Notes under the pieces: generated by a model
What the model was told of the DNA's origin: nothing
Seen by the model: only the letters and a program-made list of their open reading frames with translations
Database searches by the model: none
Part shown: piece by piece, positions 5,305 through 54,689 of the stretch
Position numbering within the stretch: position 1 is the first letter of the stretch
Layout of the letters: each line of letters begins with the position of its first letter
Program-made: the position numbers and the translations under genes
NCBI GenBank assembly: GCA_963922205.1
Contig: CAWUHX010000065.1
Coordinates: 1,178,001-1,242,000, forward strand
Source: Romanomermis culicivorax
Lineage: Eukaryota > Nematoda > Enoplea > Mermithida > Mermithidae
Reading direction: 5' to 3'
Length of the DNA stretch: 64,000 nt

Positions 5305-8300
5305 ATGTCTGCTTATTTCGCCTATCAAGTTCAATTAGCCGACGCGCCTTCCGTTCGGCATAAAGTGATTAAATGGCACCCGAAATTCAAGGACATTTTC
5401 GCCGTCGGATCTTGCGACGAACGTGGCGACGGCGGTGAAATTAATTTATTCGATGATGAAGTAAATGGAAGAAAATTCTCCCGAGTTTTTACTAGTTTTT
5501 TCGAGGATCTATTTTTTGACGTTTGCAGGAGACAGCTTTGCATACTACAGTCTGTTTTTTCTGGTAAATCTTAAAGGTGAGAAGCAAGCACTATGTTTCA
5601 TACTTTTACTTTTTCCTGCTCAACTCCACTTCAATTTGTGAGCCTGCTCAACTATACTCCATTCATTTTGAATAATCGATGCAGCGGAGTCGCAGCCCAA
5701 CTTTTATTCAAAATTATTAAAGGCATTTTGAATCTATTCAATAGATTTTTCCTTCATGAAATAGACTTCTTGATTATCACTCCTTTCAACAATTTCAAGA
5801 TTATCGATATCAATTTTCTATCTCTAATAAGGCTGCATTTGCCGAAACGCCGAGTGCTACATTGATCATTTCAGAACGAATGGAGCAGCATAGCCATTAC
5901 TCTATTTGAGATACAGTAAAAGCTTAGTGTAAACGACTTCTTGAGGAAAAATAGACTACACTTCCGATCAATCGATGGAAAATTAATTTTTTTGATCCCC
6001 ATAACGTCATCGAAAAGGAAGATGAAATATTTCGAGCAGTATTTCCGAATAGATCTTAATAAGACGCGTTGATTTGAAAAATAAGCGAATGTTGTTTCAT
6101 TTTTTTACCTAAAACATTTTTTACTGACATGAACGGAGTATAAAACCTGAATACCGAAATATACTGGGGCTCGTTCATTTTCACATAGGGTCAAAAAGTC
6201 AAAGGCTCGAATAATTCGTTGAAAAAACCCACTGCCAAACCTTTACAATTGGCTTGGCATCCTACCAAAAAAATCTTGGCCGTCGCCTGGTCCACCGGTC
6301 TGATCAACGTTTGGAATTGTGCGAAGAATAAAGGTGGACAATTTTTTATCTTGAAAATGTTACTCTTTCTAGCCCATAATGTTGGCAGACGCAACGACAA
6401 CCAAAAAAGTTGGTTCAATTTGGGACGTTATTTTCATGGTGTAGAAGACTTTGTAATGTGGAGAAAAGCTAAATTTTTCCGATATCATTAGAGGGCCAAA
6501 ATCAAAGAGCCATCACGATGCTTATCAACTTTTGATCAGAATATAACTTTTCTGTGTTTGACATCTGATACTTACTCGAGAAATTTACCATTTTACGAGG
6601 TTTTGGGTTGAAATTTTTGACTGCTCTGCTTACCGCTTATGGACAAGCAATTCTCTATCCTGCTTTTCCGCGTTGAACATACTTTCATGGTATGGCTGCA
6701 TCGATCATCTTAAAATAAATGGAGTGTAATTCACAAAACAAATTTTCCGGTAAAACTCATTATTTTGGATTTTTTATTTTTCGAAATTTGTTAGGATTAT
6801 ATTCTCTATGTAGTAGAAATGAATTTTCACAAGTTTAACCCTAATGACGATAAGAACGACATAAATTCGGCCAGCGTCCGTTGATTTCTAAATATTAAAA
6901 TGAAATATTTTTTCACTGAAATCATCACGTCAAAATCTACAAAATAATAGCAGCTCAAATTGACTACATTTTCTTTGCGTTTTTAGATGAGGTATATGTT
7001 ATATCCGGTGCTGTGGATCTGGAAATCAACAATGTCCAGTGGAGTTCGGAAGGATCGAAACTACTAGTTACCGACAGAGTAATTAAATATTGTGTGTGTT
7101 ACAGTAACTTTATAGCAATTATTCTATTCTAAGTTTAATCATCGACTCGAAAAATGATTCAATAGTTCTATTTATTTGATGGGAAAGTTTTCATCATTGA
7201 TTACTGTAATAAGCCTAGAAATTTCTCGAATAGCATCGAAAATTAAAATAAAACTTTTTTTGTTTGAGAAACATTCCAAATGAGATAAACGAGAAACTAC
7301 AGTAATATTCAGAAACGGTTTTATAGCCTTCTTGTCTACTTTTTTCAGGCTGGAGATGTTTTCTTACATAAAATTGACCTCAAAGGCCGTCCAGTGGACA
7401 ATGGCACAACGAAGACCAAACTTAAAGAACCGATCAGCTGCGTGTTGCTCAAACCGCCGTTCGATGTTCACAAGGACTCCGGGTATGCCGAGAGCAAGTT
7501 TAGCGGTGATTCGTCTGCTGATGGGAAACCATATAGAAATTTGTATACTCACAGCTCAACTGAACTTTCTCTTCTCTTATTCACCTATATGTGCTCGGAT
7601 TCAAATTTGCAGAAACGCTGCTCCACCTGAAGATGCCCTAAACGAGTTTAGAACGAAACGCGCCGTCATAGCACCCGCCGAAAGCAGTACATTTTTCCTC
7701 GGTGGCGAAACAGGTAAAAAGGCTGTCTTACTGTATCTGGTATTCGTAACATTTACCCCTTTTCATACTGTAGGCGGAATCTACTTCGTCAAAGAAAATG
7801 GTCAAGTTAACGAAATGTTCACATTGAACAAATGCGTCATGTTTTTAACCTTTTCGGCAAAAAATAACATTTTAATTTGCATATCCAATGATTTAATGTT
7901 GAGTAGGCATCAAATAAGTGCTTCTTCATCCAGCGATGCTACAGAAATGTCCAAAGTGAAAATTAATGCTAAATTGGAAAAATTAAACATTCTTCCGATT
8001 CGGGACAATGTATTGGCAATTTCGTGTGGTGAATTGAGTGTCAGGTAATCTTTAATCTGTTTTTTTGTGCATCCCTGCATATCATGAAAATGACTTAAGT
8101 GCGCGTTGAATTGGTGCCAATTTTTGTGATAAATGAAATGATTTGGTACAGAGCTTATTGCAGGAAGTTTCCGAGTAGCACACTGATGGAGCATATGCAC
8201 AAATTTGTTTTACTGTAATATGGCACTGTTTGCGCGCTTGGTCATTTGTGCACGAGCAAAACTGTTCAGAATGCTGGACATAGAACACGAAGAAAATGTT

Positions 8301-11300
8301 TTGCTGGCTTTGACCGCGGACAAAGGATACTCAGGCAGTGACTCGATCAACTGCATAGCATACTGTAGCACTAGTGGTATCGTAGCCGCGGGTACACAAT
8401 TGGGAAAATTGGCCCTGTGGAAGCCAGTTGCGAGAAATTCTCACAATCAAAGCTACACATTGATCAGCGCATCCGCTTTTCAACACAGTATCAGTTCAAT
8501 TCAGGTATAAAAAGGTCCAAAACTTGAAATCAAAGCATGCTTGACGTTTTTTACAGTGGTCGTGCGGCTTCAACTGTCTCAGTGCCTATGCCATGAATGA
8601 CATTTTCGTGTTGAAAGAACGGTCCTTATTGACGCAATTCGCCGAAAACGTGAGAAATTCGTGTAAAAGTGGAATTGAAAATTTTTGAGAAAAATCCCAT
8701 AGTAAAAATATTTTGAAATCATCTTAATTTTCCTATCATACTATAGTTTGTTTTTTATAAAATGCTTCTAAATTGAAAAAAGACAAAAATCAACTGTGCA
8801 GTCAAAATCGCGTATACAAGGCTCTCACAGTAAGATTTTTCACTCTAAAAATTGTTAAAAGTTGTTAAGCTCACAAATTTTCAATCTCACGTGACGAATG
8901 GTCCAGCTGAAAATTGTAAAAATCTAAAATAATACTTGCTTTCCACTTTTATAATTTAGAAGCATTTCAAGAAAAACAGACTATATACATATTAGTTGAA
9001 AAGTATCTTAGCCGATTCTCCATAAAAATTATGTCGTTTACCGCGTTCAACTTGCAAGGTTTTGCGCTGAAAGTTTCTGAATCATATAGATTTATGCTGG
9101 AAAATCAAAATTGGCTGCGTTCCCTTAACCCGATTATCTTGCTACTCCGATTAATACACAAAATTTTTATCAACCTGACCAATGAAAACTTTTTAGATAG
9201 TATTCTCGCTTTCCAACGGTATCGACTGTGCAGTATTATTATAGGTAGATGAATGATATTGAGTCTACAGTAAGACAATTTTGATTTGCAAGTGCATCAA
9301 AATGACAAATTACTTCTAATTTCAGGATATAAACATTGTTACTTGCTAGAAAAACTTCGTCTTACCAGATTTTTTCAGTGATGAAATGAGATGTTATTTT
9401 CATAATCAACCTACGGTAAGGCCTTAGTGATCTGATTTGCATGTGTAAGAAAAATCGACGGTACGACAGAAACGGCCTAATCCCGAAGCACAAAAACTGT
9501 ATAATTTTTCACATAAAATACAATTGCATCCAGAAGCCAGTTTTTAAACGGCGACTTAAAACATTACTATATGTCCTAAGACGCAGCTTTATCATGGAAA
9601 AGTTTTGTCTCAAGACACACACGGATATGTCCAGAGACACTGTTTAGAAAGTGTTCAAAAAGTTGAAAGTATAGTGTAATTACTGTTGCTCCAACAGTCT
9701 ATCAAATGACTGCAGCATTCTGATTCTTACCCGAACATGCCCATGAATGTGCTGATGGTTTCATGTGTGGAGATGCCCCATTTAACATTCCCAAAGGCTA
9801 TAGTTTGCTTGTTGAGGTATGAAACCATAGTTAAGCAAAACTACTCCCGTCCCTTCCATCAGGCCATATATTTGTGCAATCTGTCCTGTCCGTATAACAA
9901 TTTAAAGTCAGGCCTATCCTTTGTCTTTTCCGGCTCTAACAGTCCCGTCACTGAGGACCACTGTCTATGCTTAACCATCGCACCCTATGCTCATATCCTT
10001 AACTGATGCACCCTGTACCCCTTTGCACAGACACTATTGTTGAGGGTAACTCTTGCTCCTGCCCTCAACCATTGCACCCCAGACTCCGAGCGAGAACTCT
10101 CTCGTTGAGTAAAACTCTTACTCTATCCTTAACATTGTATACTTCCAGCCTTTTTCGGGTCTTACAGACTCATAGGTGAGGACAACTTTAGTCTATGCTC
10201 GACTATTGCACACCACTCTCCCAGACCATCTCACGGACTCCATAGCTGAGGAAAACTCTATATCTTCACATACCCTGGCCCGGGCGTGAATACAATATGT
10301 GTTTTTTGATGCAACTAAAGAAAATGTAGCATGCATAGAAATCGGCTCAGGCTCATGCATAGACTTAGATTTAGGCTTAGGCTCAGATTTAGGCTCACTT
10401 TGAATTTTCAAGAACTTTTTTATATGCAGTCGAGGTAAAGAGACGGTCCATGTAAGAGGATGGTCGAGGTAAAGGGACGGTTGATAATAGAAATTTTTCA
10501 TTTTTCATTTTAAACATTAGTCGAGGTGATGGTATGGTCGAGGTAACGAAACACAACCGACACATGTCCGTATAACAATTTCAAATTAACAAACGAAAAT
10601 ATCGTATACTTTGAAACTCTTATTTTTAGCATTTGGTTGTCCAGTCGGACCAGCACACTTTGCAATTGACCAGACTAGAACCACCGACCACTGTCGAATG
10701 CAAAATAACCGACCATCCACCCAAAGCCCTCCGAATTTGGCCTCCGTTTGTAGCATGCTTCGACGGTGGACGTTTCTCCGTCTACGAGATGACCGATTCG
10801 ATGGACGGCGGAATCGTGGTCGTCGGATCTTTCGATGTGCTCGTTGGTCAACAACAGCAATCCGATCGGGAATTGAAACTTTCAAGGGACGAAGATGATG
10901 TGCATAATGAAAGTGGTCAGTTGGCAGATTTTGCGTTGCACAGCAGTGGATTGTATTTGACGGACAAGGCTCGGATACAGGTCAAGACTTTCCAAGTAAA
11001 AATGAAAAAATGTGCATACAGGGTGTCCGAAAAATGACCGGACTACCGACCATACGTTACAGTAGCAAGGAAAGTCATGGAAGTCAACCAAATTGTCGCA
11101 AAACTTTTACCACGCATAACTCCGTCAAAGATGGACAAACACCATTTTTAATCATGTTTTTGGATAGATTTCGAGAAGAGCTTATCGATTGATCGATTTG
11201 TTGTATTTTGAAAAGCAAAAATTTTTGCTCCCCCTAGATAATAACCACCAGCGTTTTGTTGAATTATTCTGTTTCAAAATACTCTTTTTGGTGTGTTATC

Positions 11301-41169: not shown

Positions 41170-41178
41170 GTCAGTTCC
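41170..41178 (+). repeat. Left 9-bp target-site duplication of the 13.3-kb element
   Basis: gtcagttcc, identical to 54492-54500, directly abutting the first base of the terminal inverted repeat. Confidence 0.9.
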
Positions 41179-41449
41179 GGGTAGCACTAAAACCCGGATC
41201 GGGTCCACGGATCCGGATCGGGTGCCTAAAACCCGGATCACCACGGATCCGCGGATCGGCGGATCGGGGGTTTGGCTCGCTAAACCATGGTTTTAGGTGC
41301 CTAAAACCCGGATCACCACGGATCATGGCGGATCAGTCCGGTGATCCGGATCCGTGGAAAATACGTCTAAAACCCGGATTTTCATCACGGATCACCCCCA
41401 CGGATCGGGGTCCAATATATAAATTTTTGATCCGGAACCCAAATTTTTG

Positions 41450-42530
41450 ATCCGGACTAACTTTTTTTGATCCGGATCAAATTTTTTTGATCTAGATCAA
41501 ATTTTTTCGAAATTTTTCGTCGTGATGAGTATTTTCACGCCACATGTTCAGATTTTGATCCAGATCGATATTTTTGATCCGGATCAATTTTTTAATTTTT
41601 ATCTAGATTAAATTTTTTCGAATTTTTTCGTCGTGATGAGTATTTTCACGCTACATAATCAGATTTTGATCCAGATCAATATTTTTGATCCGGATCAAAT
41701 TTTTTTCAAATTTTCACCTAGATTAAATTTTTTCGAATTTTTCCGTCGTGATGAGTAAATTGACGCCATGTATTCAGATTTTGATCCAGATCAATATTTT
41801 TGATCCCGATCAAATTTTTTTTCAATTCCTCTAGATTGGATTTTCTCGGAATTTTCCGTCGTGATAAGTATACTCACGCCACATATTCAGATTTTGATCC
41901 AGATCAATATTTTTGATCCGGATCATTTTTTTTCTTCAAATTTTCACCTAGATTAAATTTTTCGAATTTTTTCGTCAAGATGAGTATTTTTGCATCACGT
42001 ATTCAGTTTTTGATCCAGATCAAATTTTTTGATCTAGATCAAAATTTTTCGAATTTTTCCGTCATGATGAGTATTTTCGTGCCACGTATTCAGTCTTTGA
42101 TCCAGAAATTTTTTTCAAATTTTCACCTGCATTAAATTTTTTCGAATTTTTCCGTCGAGATGAGTAAATTGACGTCACATATTCAGATTTTAATCCGGAT
42201 CAATATTTTTGATCCCGATCAAATTTTTTTCAATTTTTCATCTAGATTAAATTTTTTCGAATTTTTCCGTCGTGATGAGTCCGCGCCACGTATTCAGTCT
42301 TTGATCCAGATCTTTTTTTTGATCTGGATCAACTTTTTTTGACCCACACTGAAATTTTTCGAATTATTTCATCGTGATGCATATTATTGCTTCACGTCTT
42401 CAATTTTTGATCCACATCACATTTTTTGATCCGAATCAATGGTTTTTTATATTTTTTGACCAGACTGCAATTTTTCGTCATCATGGCACATATGTTGGCA
42501 TCACGTATTCAGATCCGATTTTCTTTAGTG
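41450..42530. repeat. Tandem array inside the left arm
   Basis: About nine to ten units of roughly 110 bases. Each carries a gatcc(a/g)gatcaa pair, an a/t run, a tagattaaattttttcgaatt segment and a ttccgtcgtgatgagtatttt segment. The mirror array is at about 53270-54180. Confidence 0.85.
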
Positions 42531-42719
42531 CATTTTTGGCTCAAAGTTTGAGTGATCGGACCCGGATCACTCGAAAACGGTTACAATACATGCTTGTATC
42601 AATTTGTATGGTCAAAAGAAGTTGAATGTTTTCCAGCATGGCCGAAAATGTCCACTCACTTTTGGTCTTAGAATTCTAGTCATACTCAGTTATCAGTGGA
42701 TCTATATGGAATTTGAAAC

Positions 42720-42925
42720 TTATTTATTTTACTTGAAAGAAAAATTACAGTAAAATAAGTATGTACAAGTAATAAAATACAATTCAAAACGGCATGCGGA
42801 ACACTAGCAAACTAGTAACATAAATAAAAACAAAAAAATATATCAGGGGGTACACAAAGACCCCGACGACCGGCTTTGACCACCAATTCATCGTCCCGCT
42901 TCCTCGCATCTTTATTTTTACTAAA
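42720..42925 (-). other. Possible 3'-terminal exon or UTR inside the 13-kb element
   Basis: On the minus strand, less AT-rich sequence around 42850-42910 is followed by an AT-rich tail with AATAAA near 42720. It could be the 3' end of the spliced fragment at 44954-45331 or of an unrelated transcript. The frame is ambiguous and no family is recognised. Confidence 0.25.
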
Positions 42926-43484
42926 ATAATAAAGAAGTTTAAACACAATATTCATGCAATTTTCCTATAAATTGTTTTATATTTCAAGTGACCCAACACT
43001 TAACCTCAATGGATCAATCCAGTATTAGAGGTTGGAACCTTAAAAAATTTGAAAACTTGTTTGTATCACTTCCTATCACCAGAACATTTACAAATGAAAA
43101 ATTTGATATTTTGGATACTTTTAAGTACCTTAAGATTTTCTTTTAATTTTTTTAAAACCACTTTAGTATTGTCAGTGATATTTAAAAACGTAGGAAAACA
43201 AGTTTCCTAAACCTTGTACATGCAATTTGAATCTAAAATTTTCAGATCCGTCGAAGTGAATCTGTGTTTTTTCCTAAAATTTTCAAAGTCAAACACCTTA
43301 AAAATACTTCGGAAACTTGTTTGCATCACTTCCTATCATCAGCAAAACATTTACAAACCGAAATTTAAAAAATTTGAGTATTTTTTGATGTTCAGAATTT
43401 TTCAAATTTTTTTTACATTTTTCAAAACTAAGTTAGAGATGTCGGACATGCTTGAAAACGTAGGAAAACTAGTTTCCTAAACCT

Positions 43485-44930
43485 AAAACCTGGATCGGCC
43501 CCCCACGGATCACCCAATTTTCAAATTCAAAAACCTTAAAAATACTTTGGAAACTTGCTAGCAGCACTTCCTATGATCACTGGAATAGCTACAAACCGAA
43601 AGTTTGAGGTTTTGAAATCTTTTAAAATTAAATTATTTATTTTTAATTTTTTAAAATTTAAATTTTTTTTAATTTCCTGATTTTTCCGAAACTGTGTATC
43701 TAACAGGAAGAGCTACAAATTGGAAGCTTAGGGTTTTAAATTTTTTTGAAATTTGAAATTTATTTCTAAATTTTTTTAAAATTTAAATTTTTTTCAAAAC
43801 TTAAATTTTTTTTAAAATTTTCGAATTTTTCGGAAACTAGTTTAGAAATGTCGGGCATGCTTGAAAATGTGGGGAAACAAGTTTCCCAACCTTTGAACAC
43901 ACTTTTCGGGAAGAAAATATGCCTGATCCGTGGAAAAGTGATCCGGGTTTTAGACGTGCACGACTAAAACCCGGATCGGCCCCTCACGGATCACCCAATT
44001 TTCAAACTCAAAAAACCTGAAAAATACTTTGGAAACTTGCTAGAAGCACTTCCTATGATCACTGGAATAGCTACAAACCGGAAGTTTAAGGTTTTGAAAT
44101 CTTTTAAAATTTGTTTAAAATTTAAAATTTTTTTTTAAATTTTTTTAAAATTTAAATTTTTTTTTAAAATTTTCTAATTTTTCCGAAACTGTGATCTAAG
44201 AGGAAAAGCTACAAACCGGAAGTTTAAGACTTTGAAATTTTTTAAAATTTGGAATTTATTTTGAAATTTTTTTTTAAATTTAAATTTTTTTTCAAATTTT
44301 CGAGTTTTTCCGAAACTAGTTTAGAAATGTCGGGCATGCTTGAAAATGCGGGAAAACAAGTTTCCTAACCTTTGAACACACTTTTCGGGAAGAAAATATG
44401 CCCGATCCGTGGAAAAGTGATCCGGGTTTTAGTCGTGCACGACTAAAACCCGGATCGGCCCCCCACGGATCACTCAATTTTCAAACTCAAAAACCTTAAA
44501 AATACTTTGGAAACTTGCTAGCAGCACTTCCTATGATCACTGGAATAGCTACAAACCGTAAGTTTAAGGTTTTGAAATTTTTAAAATTTTTTTTAAAATT
44601 TGAATTTTTTTAAAATTTAAATTTTTTTAAAATTTAAATTTTTTTAAAATTTAAAATTTTTTTTAAAATTTCCTAATTTTTCCGAAACTGGGATCTAAGA
44701 GGAAAAGCTACAAACCGGAAGTTAAAGGTTTTGAAACTTTTTAAAATTGTTTTAAAATTAAAAATTTTTTTTTAATTTTTTTAAAATTTAAATTATTCTC
44801 AAAAATTTTCTAATTTTTCCAAAACTAGTTTAGAAATGTCGGGCATGCTTGAAAACGTAGGAAAACATGTTTTCTAAACTTTTTACATGCAATTTGGGTC
44901 TAAAAATTTCCAGATCCATCAGAATGTTTT
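43485..44930. repeat. Three 480-bp tandem repeats inside the 13-kb element
   Basis: Units begin ggatcggccccccacggatcac near 43493, 43973 and 44453. Each continues through gaaacttgctagcagcacttcctatgatcactgg, long a/t runs and a gtcgggcatgcttgaaaa stretch. The unit start repeats the acccggatc motif of the TIRs, so the array probably grew from TIR sequence. A more diverged half-unit lies at about 43020-43480. Confidence 0.8.
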
Positions 44931-44953
44931 AGTTGCCAGTTCAACCTTACCGA

Positions 44954-45331
44954 TTAGTTTTCGCCCTTCGTAATTTTATCCGTAACTTCAGTCGGTTCTT
45001 TGGCGTAGGGTACATTCAACGCTTTAAACTGAAAGGTAAAAAATGAATTTTACACTTTACACTTGAATGGAAAATTATGTTCAAGGTGCGAAGAGTAAAA
45101 ACAACATATTTTTGACTGTTTTTGTTTTAAAATTACTATTTTCTAACCAAATGTCAAAAATCTACGGCTAAAAGCACAAATTTTTGAATTATACTTGGCG
45201 GCGCATCGATCATTGGCACTTATTTAACGTAAGCAGCTTCGGCGGCTCTGAGACGCGACGCCATGTTGGCAATTTTGACGATATCGATCGTTCCACGGGC
45301 TAAACGTTTGGCGGCCTTGGCTTTTCCAAGG
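44954..45331 (-). pseudogene. Two spliced exons of a host-like gene inside the 13-kb element
   Basis: Minus-strand exon 45229-45331 (acceptor gactacag, donor gttaaa) encodes 34 residues starting LGKAKAAKRLARGTID and containing ANMASRLRAAEAAY. After a 200-bp intron (acceptor cctttcag), exon 44954-45028 continues FKALNVPYAKEPTEV and stops at TAA. The junction is in phase. The base composition is that of the window's real genes and unlike the surrounding repeat DNA. No upstream exon could be followed, so it looks like the 3' part of a gene carried by the transposon. I do not recognise the family. Confidence 0.45.
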
Positions 45332-46658
45332 CTGTAGTCACAGGTTCCAGAATTACGATTAAAGTTTTTGCGAACTTAAAAAAAATTTTATATAGTTCCT
45401 GAACGAAATTTTTTGAAAAAAACGCGATAAATTGAATGCCAATCTATAGATATCGTTGAGATCTATTCGAAGACAGGATTCGAAATTATGTAACAACAGT
45501 TTTGACGGAGTTTTCGGTGGCTGAAGCAGGTTATATTAGTAATTTGGGTTTTTTCTGTTTCTGTTTTACTGTTAAAAGCAGAGCTAACAAAATTAAAAAT
45601 CTTAGTGTAGCTTAGTGTATATATTTAGAATATTAAACTTTATCATTATTTCATTAAGTTTCGTTGATGATTTGGATTGGAACACACTCTACAAGAGATT
45701 TAGCGCCTAATTTTATTGTTTTTGAACAAACTATAGAAATTCATCCTGTTTACTAAATGTGTGCTTGCATGATTAATACATAGAATCAGTGTTTTTTATT
45801 CTGAAAACTTTTTGCTCAATTTGAGGAAAAATCTATTTTTTTAGTTTCTGTGCTTAATAATCGCTCAAAATCATTTCTGATTTGTTTTTTGAACGTTTCC
45901 GATTAACTTGTATCTTCATTCGCGAAAAAACCCGAAAGTTTTTTGCAAAGAGGTTCGACCTATGACCTGTTTGTTTGTAAATAAATATTCAAGTGAGTTT
46001 ACATGAGCCAAGCAAAAGAATAATTAAATGCTATTACCATTTCTGTGGTTCCGATTAGAATCATCCAATTTTAGTTAGTTCTTGGTCCGGCGCACAGCGC
46101 CGAAAAATTTTTGGAATTTTATATTCTAAAACGCTGGAAAATGAATCTCTTCAATGGATATTCGCGAACAGAAGTTCTAAAATCACAGTCTAGAATGATG
46201 TCTTCAATTTCCATTTTCAATAAGCCCAAAAGTTCGTGTTAAAAATGTTGGAAAAATTCCAAGTATTGACGGAAAAAATCGAGAGAATGGATGAAAAATC
46301 AGAGTTTTTTTTGTGCCAAAACGTGGTTTTTGACACACAAAAAAATTGGAATGGCACAAAAAATTCTGAGCGTTTGTGCCAATCGACAAAAATTTTTTGA
46401 CTGATCTTAGACTGAATTTTCTTGATTTTGGTAATTTTAGAGGCTGAAAACGCAAATTTTTCTCGGCACTTCGTGCCGAGCCGAGTCAGTGAGTATAATG
46501 TTAACTACTTTTATTTGTATCGAAGGCGAGCGATATTCCATTCGTATAGTATATTTGTATTACCGCAACAGATTGAAATTGTCAATGACTGGTGAGAAGA
46601 TGAAAATTGTTAACTTCTCCTTTTCATTCAGAGGAATTCGGAATCGAACTTTTTATTT

Positions 46659-46779
46659 TTGGTGTTTGATTCGAAGACTATTCTTTCAAATTTTTTCAGA
46701 GGTTTTCAGCATGTTATCAGGGTGTTTGATTCGAACAGACTATTCTTTCAAATTTTTTCAGAGATTTTCAGCATGTTAA
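46659..46779. repeat. 61-bp tandem duplication
   Basis: ggtgtttgattcgaagactattctttcaaattttttcag... occurs twice in tandem (46659-46718 and 46719-46779) with three or four differences. It abuts a C-tract element fragment (46785-46927) whose right end gaggtcttacaggtatg equals that of the element at 56891-57125. Confidence 0.7.
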
Positions 46780-47359
46780 TATCAACCCCCCCCCAACCTC
46801 CTCCCCCCCACTTTGGAAAAAATTAAAAAAATTTGCAAAAAAGTGTATGTTTTTTGGTCTTTTTTGGGAAACATGTCGACTTTTTTCTACCCCCCCCCCC
46901 CAACTGGTCGGAGGTCTTACAGGTATGACCAGTTCCTATCAATTGAATTACTTCATCTCTTTTTTACTAATTTAGTCAAGAGTCAATAATTTGCTGATAA
47001 TTCAGATTTTTCATCACTTCTCAGAATTTTATTCTCTCGCTTCGTTTGGAGTTTTCCAAGGTTTTGAAACGTGAACCTTCCCAATCTTCCATTGAAAGAC
47101 GATAAAAACATCATTATAAGACTGTAAATTTAGACCTTCTATCCAGGAATAATTGTTGGGAACATACAAATTTTAATTTTCATGTGATTAAAGTACAATT
47201 AAAGTCCATACAAATTTTAATTTTCATGTGATTAAAGCATTTTGAGAGTAAGACTATGCTAGAAATTCTTGCCGGTTGAAAGATCCAAATTCTTAGTCGC
47301 TTGCCTAGTTTTTGAATTTAAGTTTGTCTGACTGAAAATTCATTTAGTTCACTGAAAAA

Positions 47360-48707
47360 CAGGGTTGGCAAGGCTTTGGTTTTTTGGTTTTTGGTTTTTT
47401 TGGTTTTTAAAAAAAACCAAAAAATTGGAAAATCTCTGGTTTTTTGGTTTTTTTGGTTTTTTTCCAAAATCATTGGAAAACTGTTCTTTCACATTAGTCG
47501 ATCTTCTAGGCATGTATTGGTGTCTATCTAAATCAACAAAGCAATTAATTTAGTTGAATTGATTTCATTACAAAGTAGAAAAAAATCGTATTTTTATGAT
47601 ACATTTCGTACTCTCTCTTGCAACCTCCATCTTGCAACCACACATTTAGTATATGAGTCAACTTTTCTATAATTTGCTCACAAAAAAGTAGACACTAAAT
47701 CTTTCGTGGAGTGTACTCCGACCATACGGGGCGGGGTGACATCCATTGATCCATATCATCTTCAAAATGTTATAAAATATGATTGAGTTTAATATACTGA
47801 ATTTATTGTTACGGTAAGCTTTTTAATTTTCTTAGCTCGAAATTTTAAAACATAAATGAGACAACAATAATAAAATTTTATACAGATCAGTTAAGCATAC
47901 TGTAGGTTAACAAAGAGAGGAGCTTTTGAGTGGTTCATTTTTATGGGACTTGACGTCGCTATCAAGTAGAAAAAATCGTACAAAAATATGTATCTATCAT
48001 GCAAGCGAGAATTGTATATATATAATAAGACCCATTTGCTGTAGTTATAGCTCGCAGACAGGTTTGGAAAGCAAAAGTTTGGAAACACCTGAAATGTCTA
48101 TGTGTGACCTTCAACTGCAGTTTGTAATATTAATAACATATGTAATAATCTATCAATTTAAAACCCTCTTATCGAAAACGGTATACCTAAAAATTGTGTC
48201 ATTTCAACTTCTCTGTGCATTGATACAATTCTGTAGTTGATTTCTTTTGAGTTTTGATTACGTACATTGTGTATTGTATATTTCTCTTTATTTGTAGTTT
48301 TTTTCTTTTCCTTGAATTTGCCCCTTACATATCGCATGCTCTGTTCCATTTTTACTTTTCTTGTGTTCCTCACTCATAGTTCCTTTTTTATGTACCCACT
48401 ATTACTGTGTTTCTATTGCTAAATAGGAATTTCCTATAGCATAAAATAATGACACTTCTGATAAGATTAATACTTCTAGCTGCCATTTTACGGCTCCCTA
48501 ACTAGTCTTAGATGATACAATGAGCTTCCAGAACTTTTTTACATAGTTATTTTGATGTAACCAAACATTCTAAAGAATTAAACCAGAAAAAAACCACTAA
48601 AAAACCATAGAAAAACCAAAAAAACCATTAAAAAACCATAAAAAACCACTAAAAAACCAAAAAACCAAAAAGTCGAAATTTCAAAAGTTTGGTTTTTGCC
48701 AACCCTG
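47360..48707. mobile_element. Non-autonomous hAT-like element with ggttttt/aaaaacc arms, perfect 8-bp TSD
   Basis: Starts cagggttggcaaggctttgg and ends gtttttgccaaccctg. Target duplication ctgaaaaa at 47352-47359 and 48708-48715, exact. Subterminal arrays of tttttggttt (left) and aaaccactaaaaaaccata (right) extend the inverted repeat over 100 bases. It is inserted within the 13.3-kb element. No transposase recognised in its 1.35 kb. Confidence 0.88.
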
Positions 48708-49525
48708 CTGAAAAATCGAACCTTCTGTCTGTCTGGGAAATAAAAGGTGGAAAGATTCATTTTCCAGCGTTCTGAAATATTGGAACTCAGAAAAAATTTT
48801 CGGCGCTAGGCGCCGAAAAAATTACTCTAATGCAGTCATGTGAATCTGTTCATTTTCTCTCCATATAACTCTGAAAATTGGATTTGGAATGTCTAAAACC
48901 GACGCGGATCGAATGAAATACAGGAAAACTGATTTGCGATGGTTTTTCCGATTATTTTACGCAAATTTATCTATTTGAGAGTGAGAAACTAAAAATTTAT
49001 CTGTGCAACCAAAATTTTTCTCCAAGTGCACATTGCAACCTGGCCAGTGCAAAAAAAACCCTGACTCGCCCGCCGCCGCCGCGCGCGCCCATAAAAATTT
49101 AGATGATCGATACTACAGTAAGGAAAGCAGTTGCTATGTAGCTAACGGGAAAAACTTGATTACTGACCTGTAATTTTCTGATAATTTGAATCCACTCACA
49201 ATAATAATGAAATACCGTAAAAATTTGTATAAATGCAGCTGTTTTATAGGTTCATTGATGCACCATTTATTAGGGGCGCCATCATTTCGGGGGCACCGTT
49301 TATTGAAATTTTGCACTTCATGTCTTTATTCCATTATGTTTTCCATTCCCTCACGAGTACTGCACTCGTAGCATTTCTCAGCTTTGACCTTTTTACCGCC
49401 ATTTTCTTATCTGTATAATTTTCTCATGAAATAACATACCTTTCTTACATCAAGGAAAGAAAAGAAAACAAAGAAAGAACAAATAAATGTAACCAAGGGA
49501 AAACAAGAGAAAAAACAAATGAACA

Positions 49526-51321
49526 CCTTGGAGCAACAACATGTGCCCTTCTGACCGAAATGGAGTTATGTACATTTTTGACCTCATAACATAGTAAAAG
49601 ATCGTCATACAATAAAACGCAATATTGATAAAGTTAGCCAGAGTATAAAGGTGTCATGCGCCATAAGATATAATGCAACAAGGTGTTATGTACACTTTTT
49701 GGACAACAATGTGTTATGTGCACAAAACTCATATATATAACATCTTTTTACACTTTGGAGTTTGTGTTGGATATTTTCCATTTTGACAAAACACTATATT
49801 ACATTTAGTTTCCGCACATTTCACATTACTCTTCTGCAATTCTCTGTGGAAAGTTGGGCGTTCTTGTTGAAAACGAAACCAATGCCTCAGAATCAAGCTT
49901 ATGATTTAATGGTTAGAAATTAGTACAACTCATCATCTGATGATGAATTATTGTCTCTGCTAAAAAAACCAGCCTTTTTGCTGAAAATAACAAAGTCGCA
50001 AAATCACAAGACTGGTGGTTATTCAGAGTGGGAATGAATATCCGTTTATTATTGAGAAATCAAAATCGTTTTTTTGCTTCAAAGTAATATTTCTGATGGT
50101 TTAATCTCAGCCAAGAAATATTGTCTGTTGCAAAGTGTTCAGACAAAAAGGTTAAATATGCCAATGGTGAGAAAATTCCATTTGATCATATTTATATTGG
50201 CTACGTGTTATTGAGTTTGAATTGTTTGAATACTCAAAGAGTGGAAGCAAGTGAACATACAGGATCATTTTTCCATGTCCTCTATTTAATTTCTATCATC
50301 CCAACGGGTCGACCAGTGATACAAGCATCATATTCTTAGACATAGAAACTCTAAGTATAGCCTGTTTTTTGTGAAAAGCTTCTAAATAATGAAAGTGGAA
50401 AGCAAGTATTATTTCAGTTTTCCACGATTTTATGGTAAACAATATATCATGTAGGACTGGAGATTTGTGGGCATACTTATCAAACCTTTAACAATTTTTA
50501 GAGTGAAAAATTTCATAGCAAGAGCCCTATGTAAGCGATTTTGACGACAGTACTGATTTGTGTCACCTTTCTATTTGGAAGCATTTTATAGAAAACAGGC
50601 TATAGATCGGTTGTCCCAGTAAGTTGACCATCTTAGTAAGATGACTGTCCCACAAAGTCGACTATACTGATAAACCTAAAGTCTGTGACAGGTTTATTAT
50701 CCAAATTTGAAATATCAGATTGCTTTCAGGGCCCAGGCGTAGGCTTAGGGTTGGGCTTGTGTAAAAGAGATGTGCAGGTGACCTTCTGGAACAGGGACCC
50801 TACTGAGATGATCAACTTATTGGAACGATCGACATATTGGGACAATCAACCTACTAGCACATAATCATTCACGTTGATTTGAAGTTGATGTAGAAGGCAT
50901 CCAGACATCCTATCAATGAAAAGGAAATTTTGAAACAATTGAAACATACTCGAAGAGTCTACCAAAGCCTCTATGAAAGTCTAATGGTTGGCCATGCTGA
51001 TAGTGATAGCTTCAGTGAAGAACAATTTTAACTGTTCTCTTGGTTTTGAAATGTATCTGAAATGTGTGATTATTTTGCATGTGTTATGTGACTTTGAGTT
51101 GAATTTTTATAATGCAACAAAGTGCTTTGTGTTCTTAATTACGAAAATGAGAGGAACGTCCGTGATGAAATTCTGGCGGTACATTGTCCATCTTATACTT
51201 CTACTGTAACAGGAGACAAGGTCAAGATACATCAAACAGGCAAAAAATGACAAACTTGTGACTTCATTTGCTATTTACTCAAAATGCACTTTTTGTTACA
51301 TAACACCTTGTTGCCCCAAGG
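49526..51321. mobile_element. Decayed DNA transposon with CCTTGG..GCAACAA ends
   Basis: Left end ccttggagcaacaa, right end ttgttgccccaagg, inverted apart from one base. Subterminal copies of gttatgtacacttttt occur at both ends and once more at about 49685. Broken open frames between (for example an acidic SSDDELLSLLKK stretch near 49930) hint at an old piggyBac-like transposase, but that is weak and no TTAA target duplication is visible. Confidence 0.5.
50356..50605. mobile_element. 250-bp MITE, copy 2 (reverse orientation)
   Basis: Ends tatagcctgttttttgtgaaaa and ttttatagaaaacaggctatag. Same family as 8742-8985 and 52848-53095. It is inserted inside the decayed element at 49526-51321. Confidence 0.8.
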
Positions 51322-51419
51322 TATTCAAATGATGAACTGAAAAGAAAAGAAAACAGAATAGAACTACTTTTGAGGCATCTGACAATGGGTCGGTTTCCTT
51401 ATTTTTCAGCCTGCAATAG

Positions 51420-51560
51420 TCCTAGAGATTAAATGGGGTACCCAGATCCGCATTACCCGGAACTTTTCAGGATCCAGATCTGGAAGAAGCATTTTCAATT
51501 ACCCGGATCCGGATCCAGAAAAATGCATTTCAACTACACAGATCCAGAACCGGATAATTC
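51420..51560. repeat. acccggatccggatc repeat fragment
   Basis: Several ttacccggatccggatccag phrases, shared with about 52750-52845. They resemble the palindromic vocabulary of the 13-kb element's arms but are not part of them. Confidence 0.5.
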
Positions 51561-52847
51561 CAAATGCAGTTTGGACATAACTGATACTAATTAAGTGGAA
51601 GTGTACTGTCTGACTATAAATATATTTTGACACTAAGGTAACGTTACAAGGTAAGGTAACAAACATTTCTTTGATTGATTTAATAATAACAGTCAATATT
51701 TAAAATTGATTTTAAATTGTATTTCAAAAACAAAAGTTTTTCAGCAATTTCAACTAGGGTTTTTTTGTGCACTGAGCACAGTTTTGGAGTTCGTGCGCAA
51801 ATTTTTAGGAAGTTTTGTGCACAGGGCAGAAGTCAATTTTCATATCATATGGGCTTTCAGTGCGGTTCATATGCTGTTGTTTTAGCCGATTCTTTTGTAA
51901 CTTGAAATGTTTCACTTTATGTTTAGTCTATGATTTTTGCTATTTTAGTCTATGATCTTCATCTTGGTATTTAACCAAAATCAAAATTTGAAGAATCTAA
52001 ATTTTTGGTCGCTAGTTTGATTTTTGAGTCGCACTTGCCATTCAATATGATTTCTACATTCTGTTCTGGTATGCAATTTATTAAACATCATTTGCTTCAA
52101 GCCGATTTTCTAGCTGGTTAGCTGATGAAAGTATCATCTCGTTGCTCAAGTCAGAACATCATTCTAGACTTGAAAATTAAACCTTAGCCATGAAATAAGT
52201 CTTGAAGACATTTACCAGCGTCCTAGAGTATAATACTCCAAAAAATTTCCGGGCGTTTCACGCCAGAATGAAAGATAAATTAAATGTAGTTCATAGTTTT
52301 TAACTCTGACTAATCACAAAGATGTCGTCAGTGGAATTTCTAGGCAATTTAGGATTTTTTGCCTCAGTTTTTGGCTCCAGCAAAATCTGTTATTTTAAAG
52401 CTGACGTTAGAACAGTTTCCAGTCTCATAGCCTCTCATTCAAATTTCAGCAACAGTGATGCTGCATCACATGAATTTATGTTATGAAAACGCAGATTTTT
52501 TTCTCGCAGTATAGATTAGACTTGAAGGAGGATGAAGTTTTTGTTCTTTTCACCATTGAAGATTGCATTATGTAGATTGCTTTAGTAATCTAAATTGCTG
52601 AACTTGTGCACCTTTACACAGCAGATTTAATACATCTGATAAACACTTCAACAGAATCATTTAAAGACGCATGAATTAGAAGGCCTGCATAATCACGATA
52701 CCTGTATAATAGATTATTACTACCTGAATCTGGATACGTATGTAGTGGGCCTGATTACCCAGATCCGGATCCGTGAAACTCATTTCCGATTACCCATATC
52801 AGGATCAGAAACCCGGAGATTGAAAATCTTGGATCCGTTTCATCTCA

Positions 52848-53095
52848 ATAGTCTGTTTTTTATAAAATGCTTCCAAATAGAAAAGTGACACAAATCAGTA
52901 CTGTCGTCAAAATCGTTCACATAAAGTTCTTTTTGTAAAATTTTTCACTCGAAAAATTGCTAAAAATTAGGTCAGTATGCTTGCAAATTTCCAGTCCTAC
53001 ATAATATTTCGTTTGTCAGAAAATCGCAAAAATCTGAAATACTACTTGCTTTCCACTTTCATTATTTGGAAGCATTTTAAGAAAAACAGACTATA
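52848..53095. mobile_element. 250-bp MITE, copy 3
   Basis: Ends tagtctgttttttataaaatgc and gcattttaagaaaaacagactata. Closely matches copy 1 at 8742-8985 in the same orientation. It lies just inside the right arm of the 13-kb element. Confidence 0.8.
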
Positions 53096-54689
53096 AGTAG
53101 TCCAGAGCTTGAAACCCAAATTCACTTCTTTCTGCAGCCCTGACTCGTAACTCTGATTCATCTAAATCTGAATCTAAAACTTAATCCAAAATGGCCCCAA
53201 CATTTATTAGCAGGCACATTTATTATTCTGTGAGTGACAAAAAAAATCGAAAAATTGTAGTCTGGGATTGGATCAACAAATGTCATGTAGATCAAAAATT
53301 GAATGCGTGGAGCGAAAATACTCATCATGACGAAAAAACTCCAAAAATTTTGATCTAGATCAAAAAAACTTGATCTAGATCAAAAAATTTTGATCTGTAT
53401 CAAAAAATGTGATCTGGATCGAAAACTGAATACGTGATGCAAAAATACTTAACTTGACGAAAAAATTCGACAAATTTATGTGTGAGTCAAAAAAAGTTGA
53501 TCCAGATCAAAAAATAAGATCTGGATCAAAGATTTAATACGTGGCACGAAAATACTCATCATGACGGAAAAATTCGAAAAATTTTGATCTATATCAAAAA
53601 ATTTGATCTAGATCAAAAAATTTGATCTGGATCAAAAACTGAATACGTGATGCAAAAATACTCATCTTGACGAAAAAATTCGAAAAATTTAATCTAGGTG
53701 AAAATTTGAAGAAAAAAAATGATCCGGATCAAAAATATTGATCTGGATCAAAATCTGAATATGTGGCGTGAGTATACTTATCACGACGGAAAATTCCGAG
53801 AAAATCCAATCTAGAGGAATTGAAAAAAAATTTGATCGGGATCAAAAATATTGATCTGGATCAAAATCTGAATACATGGCGTCAATTTACTCATCACGAC
53901 GGAAAAATTCGAAAAAATTTAATCTAGGTGAAAATTTGAAAAAAATTTGATCCGGATCAAAAATATTGATCTGGATCAAAATCTGATTATGTAGCGTGAA
54001 AATACTCATCACGACGAAAAAATTCGAAAAAATTTAATCTAGATAAAAATTAAAAAACTGATCCGGATCAAAAATATCGATCCGGATCAAAAATATCGAT
54101 CTGGATCAAAATCTGAACATGTGGCGTGAAAATACTCATCACGACGAAAAATTTCGAAAAAATTTGATCTAGATCAAAAAAATTTGATCCGGATCAAAAA
54201 AAGTTAGTCCGGATCAAAAATTTGGGTTCCGGATCAAAAATTTATATATTGGACCCCGATCCGTGGGGGTGATCCGTGATGAAAATCCGGGTTTTAGACG
54301 TATTTTCCACGGATCCGGATCACCGGACTGATCCGCCATGATCCGTGGTGATCCGGGTTTTAGGCACCTAAAACCATGGTTTAGCGAGCCAAACCCCCGA
54401 TCCGCCGATCCGCGGATCCGTGGTGATCCGGGTTTTAGGCACCCGATCCGGATCCGGATCCGTGGACCCGATCCGGGTTTTAGTGCTACCCGTCAGTTCC
54501 CCCTAATTACTGTACGCGTTAGCGAAAAGTGACAGTTCGCCCGAAGACCTATTCAAGAGTGAAGTCACTGACTCTCGCTGATTCCTAGGATTAAATCGGG
54601 CGAAAGTCCTGAAAATTAGAACATAGTGTTCAATTTCCCCAATTTCATCCTGGGATCAAAATCGGCGATCGTTGCCGACCATAATCCAA

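Follow-up and report, generated by a model that had tools for sequence, protein, structure and literature searches.

The stretch of DNA analysed here, the window, comprises 64,000 nucleotides of the mermithid nematode Romanomermis culicivorax (C65:1178001-1242000 of a 359-Mb genome), and all genome-wide searches cover this assembly. Between window positions 41179 and 54491 lies an element of 13,313 bp with inverted minisatellite arms, flanked by perfect 9-bp duplications GTCAGTTCC. Its termini are exact inverted repeats, both beginning GGGTAGCACTAAAACCC. What was observed directly is that the ends are precise, that duplications of 9 bp flank them, that related sites exist without the insertion, that a second copy is near-identical and that a gene lies between the ends of larger relatives. 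The window element is a real transposed element.

Boundaries, insertion site and age

The features that define the boundaries of the element are the following.

41170..41178, plus strand: left target-site duplication GTCAGTTCC, present as a single copy in the related empty sites
41179..42306, plus strand: left terminal inverted repeat (TIR), starting GGGTAGCACTAAAACCC, aligned to the reverse complement of the right arm
41485..42057, plus strand: minisatellite within the left arm, about 115-bp units, 5.0 copies, with GATC palindromes (Tandem Repeats Finder, TRF, and GATC density)
53290..54491, minus strand: right TIR, from the arm-to-arm alignment
53596..54092, minus strand: minisatellite within the right arm, about 115-bp units, 4.4 copies (TRF)
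54492..54500, plus strand: right target-site duplication GTCAGTTCC, from the flank reading

Alignment and flank reading bear out the inverted termini and flanking duplications described in an initial annotation of this DNA. Its account of the arms as GATC-rich arrays of about 110-bp units also holds, with TRF units of about 115 bp and 40-47 GATC per kb in the arms, against 5 in the body and 3.5 in window positions 1-41178. The units are alike within as well as between arms. The same annotation called the arms almost identical, which has to be corrected. Because the left arm (41179-42306) and the right arm (53290-54491) share 90.5% identity over 1,205 columns, with 24 gap openings, they are similar and not almost identical.

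As for the insertion site, the two flanks joined by a single GTCAGTTCC (at most 3 mismatches) are found uninterrupted at 10 genomic places, with 0 for the reversed control. The exact 9-mer is present in 5 of these 10 related empty sites, and the other 5 vary inside it. Therefore, the element inserted in an older dispersed repeat, and GTCAGTTCC is a true duplication.

The second copy, on C440, carries its own target duplication, TTATCAGGG. Over 11,933 aligned bases it has 38 substitutions relative to the window copy (0.32%), with small indels in addition. Recent mobility of the window element, already suspected in the initial annotation, is supported by this low divergence. The interior had been described as old and full of nested insertions. 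This was not confirmed, as C440 matches arms and body equally, at 99.3% where aligned, and the sole large difference within the element is one 1,348-bp insert found in the window copy only. Judging from its ends and its 8-bp duplication CTGAAAAA, this insert (47360-48707) looks hAT-like.

Ongoing gene conversion in an otherwise old resident element might also keep the arms alike, and the arms are indeed long inverted repeats with units that resemble each other within and between them. We consider this very improbable. The arms of the window copy are about 9.5% apart, yet each is 99.3% identical to the C440 arms, just like the body, and the divergence of the whole element is as low as given above. 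Arm-to-arm conversion, the second option in the initial annotation, was rejected on these figures.

Ends, duplications and interior across the family

A genome-wide search with the arm end was productive, since the terminal 22-mer is found at 187 places (89 + 98) when 2 mismatches are allowed, and the reversed control at 0. Beside the TAGCAC form of the window copy, a second end form, TAGTAC, is likewise common, and the group has the two end types GGGTAGCAC and GGGTAGTAC. Ends were typed for 145 (71 plus, 74 minus) among those listed, of the 187 counted. Pairing of facing neighbour ends within 60 kb among these 145 gives 43 elements, from 694 bp to 49 kb, with a chance expectation of about 0.9 such pairs.

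Target duplications were tested in 40 of the 43 pairs, with C10:1342879, C17:1025640 and C379 left out. Exact 9-bp duplications are present in 23, while 2 have one mismatch, 2 are shifted by one base, 1 is of 8 bp and 12 have none. For pairs with a TAGCAC end, 10 of the 11 tested are exact and the remaining one is shifted. Considering only the window-type (CC) pairs, 8 of 9 tested are exact and the ninth is off by one base. The expectation in the initial annotation that copies carry 9-bp duplications thus stands for the 23 exact and 5 near-exact pairs and fails for the other 12, all of which are of TAGTAC type.

The last result bears on whether the inverted repeat, or the pairing of the ends of the window element, is an assembly artefact. 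In favour of an artefact are the 12 of 29 TAGTAC pairs without matching duplications, together with three exact cross-contig duplications and the C86/C115 case ('-'/'-') reported further below, as mis-joins in near-identical long copies would give. Against it are the CC pairs, nearly all exact, and the empty-site evidence for the window copy. We regard an artefact as extremely unlikely.

In terms of the interior, three further features were found within the window element.

42833..42991, minus strand: exon relic (second conserved frame of the larger relatives, near one end), 53 aa, 36% identity, two stops (tblastn)
43483..44882, plus strand: 479-bp internal tandem repeat, 2.9 copies, consensus beginning with the terminal motif CTAAAACCCGGATC (TRF)
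47360..48707, no strand assigned: nested hAT-like insert, 1,348 bp, with ends CAGGGTTGGCAA on both strands, flanked by CTGAAAAA on either side, not present in C440

We compared 14 other TAGCAC copies with the body of the window copy, most of them covered for about 5 kb from one end. In 12 of the 14 the body matches at 84.8-96.7% where covered, and thus the interior of the element is largely family sequence. The copy at C9:165126 has no body match within the stretch compared, and the 0.7-kb C547 copy has practically none. At the DNA level, the 479-bp repeat is about 69% similar to a subterminal part of a TAGTAC element on C214.

Some minor observations concern the same regions. A dispersed repeat of about 250 bp is found at window positions 50356-50603, 52848-53095 and 8741-8985, the first two copies being inverted within the element and 84% alike. 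Long open frames with reverse-transcriptase-like sequence, as read by eye, are nested in a TAGCAC element on C18 (L046-L047).

A candidate transposase gene in larger relatives

The C214 TAGTAC element holds a gene that is apparently split into exons, with borders predicted from sequence. The N-terminal part is basic; the other parts are a DDE-like exon, a stretch with a CxC-x4-CxH motif and a PHD-like finger. The frame is interrupted by a stop. A copy on C92 has an open 275-aa frame reading YDTTF, ITDREF and CWRHLLDNV, motifs like those of Mutator-like elements (MULEs).

The exon census covers the top 54 near-full copies among 150 matches listed, of 168 candidates. Most of them (43 of 54) are stop-free. 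Half of the 54 (27) are enclosed by a pair of ends, and all paired stretches together make up 0.28% of the genome. Another 21 have an unpaired end no more than 45 kb away and lie to its inner side, and for the last 6 neither applies. Some of the remaining 96 matches are also within elements, such as C45:573646, C11:1612175 and C379:107098. Relatives of roughly 40% identity are also among the matches. The exactly equal score of 11 exon copies, which does not imply identity, suggests a recent spread.

Gene-bearing pairs (n = 25) measure 17-49 kb, with 12 at 21.4-24.2 kb and 9 above 33 kb. For 24 of the 25, duplications are exact in 10, near-exact in 4 and absent in 10. The exact ones are found in pairs of 18.4, 21.4, 21.6, 22.6, 24.2, 26.4, 33.4, 36.2, 36.5 and 39.7 kb. 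One or two TAGCAC ends occur in the gene-bearing pairs on C1, C51 and C17, and two pairs with one such end, C1:1560405-1582964 and C51:560784-579213, have exact duplications. No relative turned up in viral contigs.

A second conserved frame is 95-98% identical across three TAGTAC copies (L060:5012-5458, L061:4791-5177, L064:4450-4878). It has no Pfam family, and its relic is present in the window element.

Partial stretches of 8 TAGTAC copies were compared with the window copy. Where aligned, the arms match at 76-92%; four of the 8 also have matching repeats, at 69-72%. The relic at 42833..42991 has a tblastn E of 7.6e-06 against the element alone and of 2e-4 against the collected loci as a whole. 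The transposase exon was not found in the window element by tblastn, in line with the initial annotation, which saw no transposase there and placed the element among Mutator-like or foldback builds. The build is supported, and a candidate partner gene lies in elements with the same ends.

With a probability of about 0.83, we read the window copy as a recently inserted non-autonomous cut-and-paste transposon, whose larger relatives in the same genome carry a DDE-like gene of Mutator/Rehavkus character. The intron-split gene of the 17-49 kb relatives would encode the transposase. This enzyme would recognise the terminal motif and the GATC-rich units, cut with a 9-bp stagger and act in trans on gene-less copies such as the window element. 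The window element presumably moved in this way, which we infer because termini and duplication size are shared.

Several results weigh against this reading. What the window copy has in common with the large TAGTAC copies is limited to its arms, repeats of about 70% similarity (in 4 of 8 compared) and one exon relic, so that its movement by the same transposase is something we infer. Of the 12 duplication-less TAGTAC pairs, 10 are gene-bearing. Even at an E of 10, Pfam has no entry that matches the transposase-like exon, nor is the exon listed in a genome-wide search with PF10551, which scored 150 of 248 candidates. Its profile alignment (hhalign) to the Pfam-MULE proteins of this genome has a probability of 6.8%, with an aligned part that excludes the first D, and the position of the third catalytic residue was not found. 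Among solved structures, the closest sequence is that of the hAT transposase Hermes (E 0.17). The single-sequence AlphaFold model was too poor to use, with a mean predicted local distance difference test (pLDDT) of 39.1.

The same hhalign alignment has a score of 26.7 and keeps register at the second D and the CxxH. None of 100 column shuffles scored as high, and the reversed control gave 18.7. The CxC-x4-CxH motif was read by eye and has no SWIM match in Pfam. The PHD-like finger matches PF00628 over positions 1-47 of 47, below cut-off (E 0.16 and 0.072), and the position of the fourth cysteine was not seen by eye.

A Pfam-detectable MULE was rejected as partner, with 0 of 122 PF10551 places lying between paired ends. 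Furthermore, the terminal motif is absent from 30 PF10551 loci (1.5 kb each side). For the autonomous partner with a MULE transposase that the initial annotation proposed to look for, a strong candidate gene was found within same-ended elements, and this gene has no Pfam MULE match.

The mobilising enzyme may also belong to another superfamily (hAT-, P- or Merlin-like), its likeness to MULEs being only that of a shared RNase H-type fold. The proximity to Hermes and the missing Pfam match are consistent with this. The target duplication of hAT elements is 8 bp, which is not the rule here, as 23 of 40 pairs have 9 bp and one has 8 bp. The CxC-x4-CxH motif, the PHD-like finger and the minisatellite arms also fit published descriptions of MULEs and Rehavkus, and we judge another superfamily to be unlikely. 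For an enzyme of Mutator/Rehavkus character, the nearest description is the Rehavkus end of the Mutator superfamily, to which the 9-bp duplications, the minisatellite arms and the PHD-like finger point, with membership unproved.

Rehavkus-1_TC of Tribolium, assigned to the Mutator superfamily or an outgroup, is 9.5 kb long, and in the cited passages Rehavkus has a 9-bp duplication, inverted termini in which a short satellite is tandemly repeated (in the beetle with a unit of 164 bp) and a PHD-finger transposase (PMC10218199, PMC6446971). The likeness, by description and not by sequence, consists of the 9-bp duplication, the tandem array in inverted termini (here 115-bp units, in both arms) and the PHD finger, here a weak match only. 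The differences are the 17-49 kb of the gene-bearing pairs and the transposase not found in the window copy.

In root-knot nematodes, Tm1 (Mutator/Foldback, Phantom-like) is described in the cited passages with composite TIRs of variable length, repeated motifs and 9-bp duplications, and with copies lacking a transposase next to a transposase gene that presumably has introns (PMC3169594). Composite TIRs, 9-bp duplications and gene-less copies alongside gene-bearing ones are shared with our family. In contrast, Tm1-A is 2.5 kb long, has a Pfam-detectable MULE domain and is bounded by asymmetric 7-bp motifs that lie beyond the inverted repeat.

In the source cited (PMC13359780), arthropod MULEs (Phantom and others) have complete elements of 1.4-10.0 kb, and their TIRs reach 1,193 bp according to the text or 1,527 bp according to the table. 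They are alike in their long TIRs and in a DDE transposase, here a candidate, and differ from the 17-49 kb between ends, and the lack of a Pfam MULE match, seen here. Finally, the foldback element Tetris of Drosophila virilis is reported with a transposase-less middle, inverted termini with tandem arrays and 8-10 bp duplications (PMC4079207, in part). An autonomous partner was not found for Tetris, whereas a candidate is present here.

The literature searched, which did not cover Repbase, names no such element, and it is plausible that the family is undescribed. The novelty would then lie in the family and in how large its gene-bearing copies are, the kind being known already. If our reading is true, the 17-49 kb gene-bearing family would extend the known size range of Mutator-like elements, given for arthropods as 1.4-10 kb in the passages cited (PMC13359780). 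It would also be a natural system for Rehavkus-type transposition, with 10 exact pairs and 43 of 54 exon copies free of stops; very few Rehavkus elements were described as of 2019, according to the section cited (PMC6446971). Long minisatellite arms are common to gene-bearing and gene-less copies.

Distant ends and neighbouring genes

Among plus/minus combinations of ends that are not neighbours, 5 in 2,867 have exact duplications, and shuffled 9-mers give an expectation of 0.055 over 2,907 combinations. Two lie on a single contig. On C45 (559575/708804), two elements have the same duplication, TCCTCAAGA, at their outer ends, which are 149 kb apart; on C105 (357589/432454), GAAACGTAG is found at both of two ends 75 kb apart. 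The inner ends read mismatch in both. The others are shared across contigs (C92:625167/C472:110516, C51:792279/C154:557809 and C44:776733/C172:18319), and a further exact match, C86:16870/C115:834791, joins two '-' ends. The cross-contig cases suggest mis-joins or ectopic exchange within near-identical copies.

With outer ends that share a duplication and inner ends that mismatch, two elements and the intervening DNA may have moved as a unit, and the C45 and C105 cases may be macrotransposons or assembly errors. Maize Ac macrotransposons are reported at up to 28 kb in the passage cited (PMC9910405). That pairs of giant elements act together as macrotransposons, moving two elements and the host DNA between them, seems to us rather unlikely. 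A partner search with a C45 inner flank gave one weak match, on C11, with 1 mismatch within the flank; for the other inner flank no partner was found, and no empty site was found for C45. The C45 inner flank belongs to a common repeat, for which 40 matches were scored among 1,284 candidates, and the donor is therefore untraceable. The second C105 element is missing its left end among the ends listed.

The canonical nematode SL1 22-mer gave no match in the genome when 2 mismatches were allowed, and its reversed control gave 1. As for neighbouring genes, open frames at window positions 7284-8045 and, below the curated cut-off, 10630-11034 match the beta-propellers of the ciliary gene IFT140, in keeping with a ciliated eukaryote.

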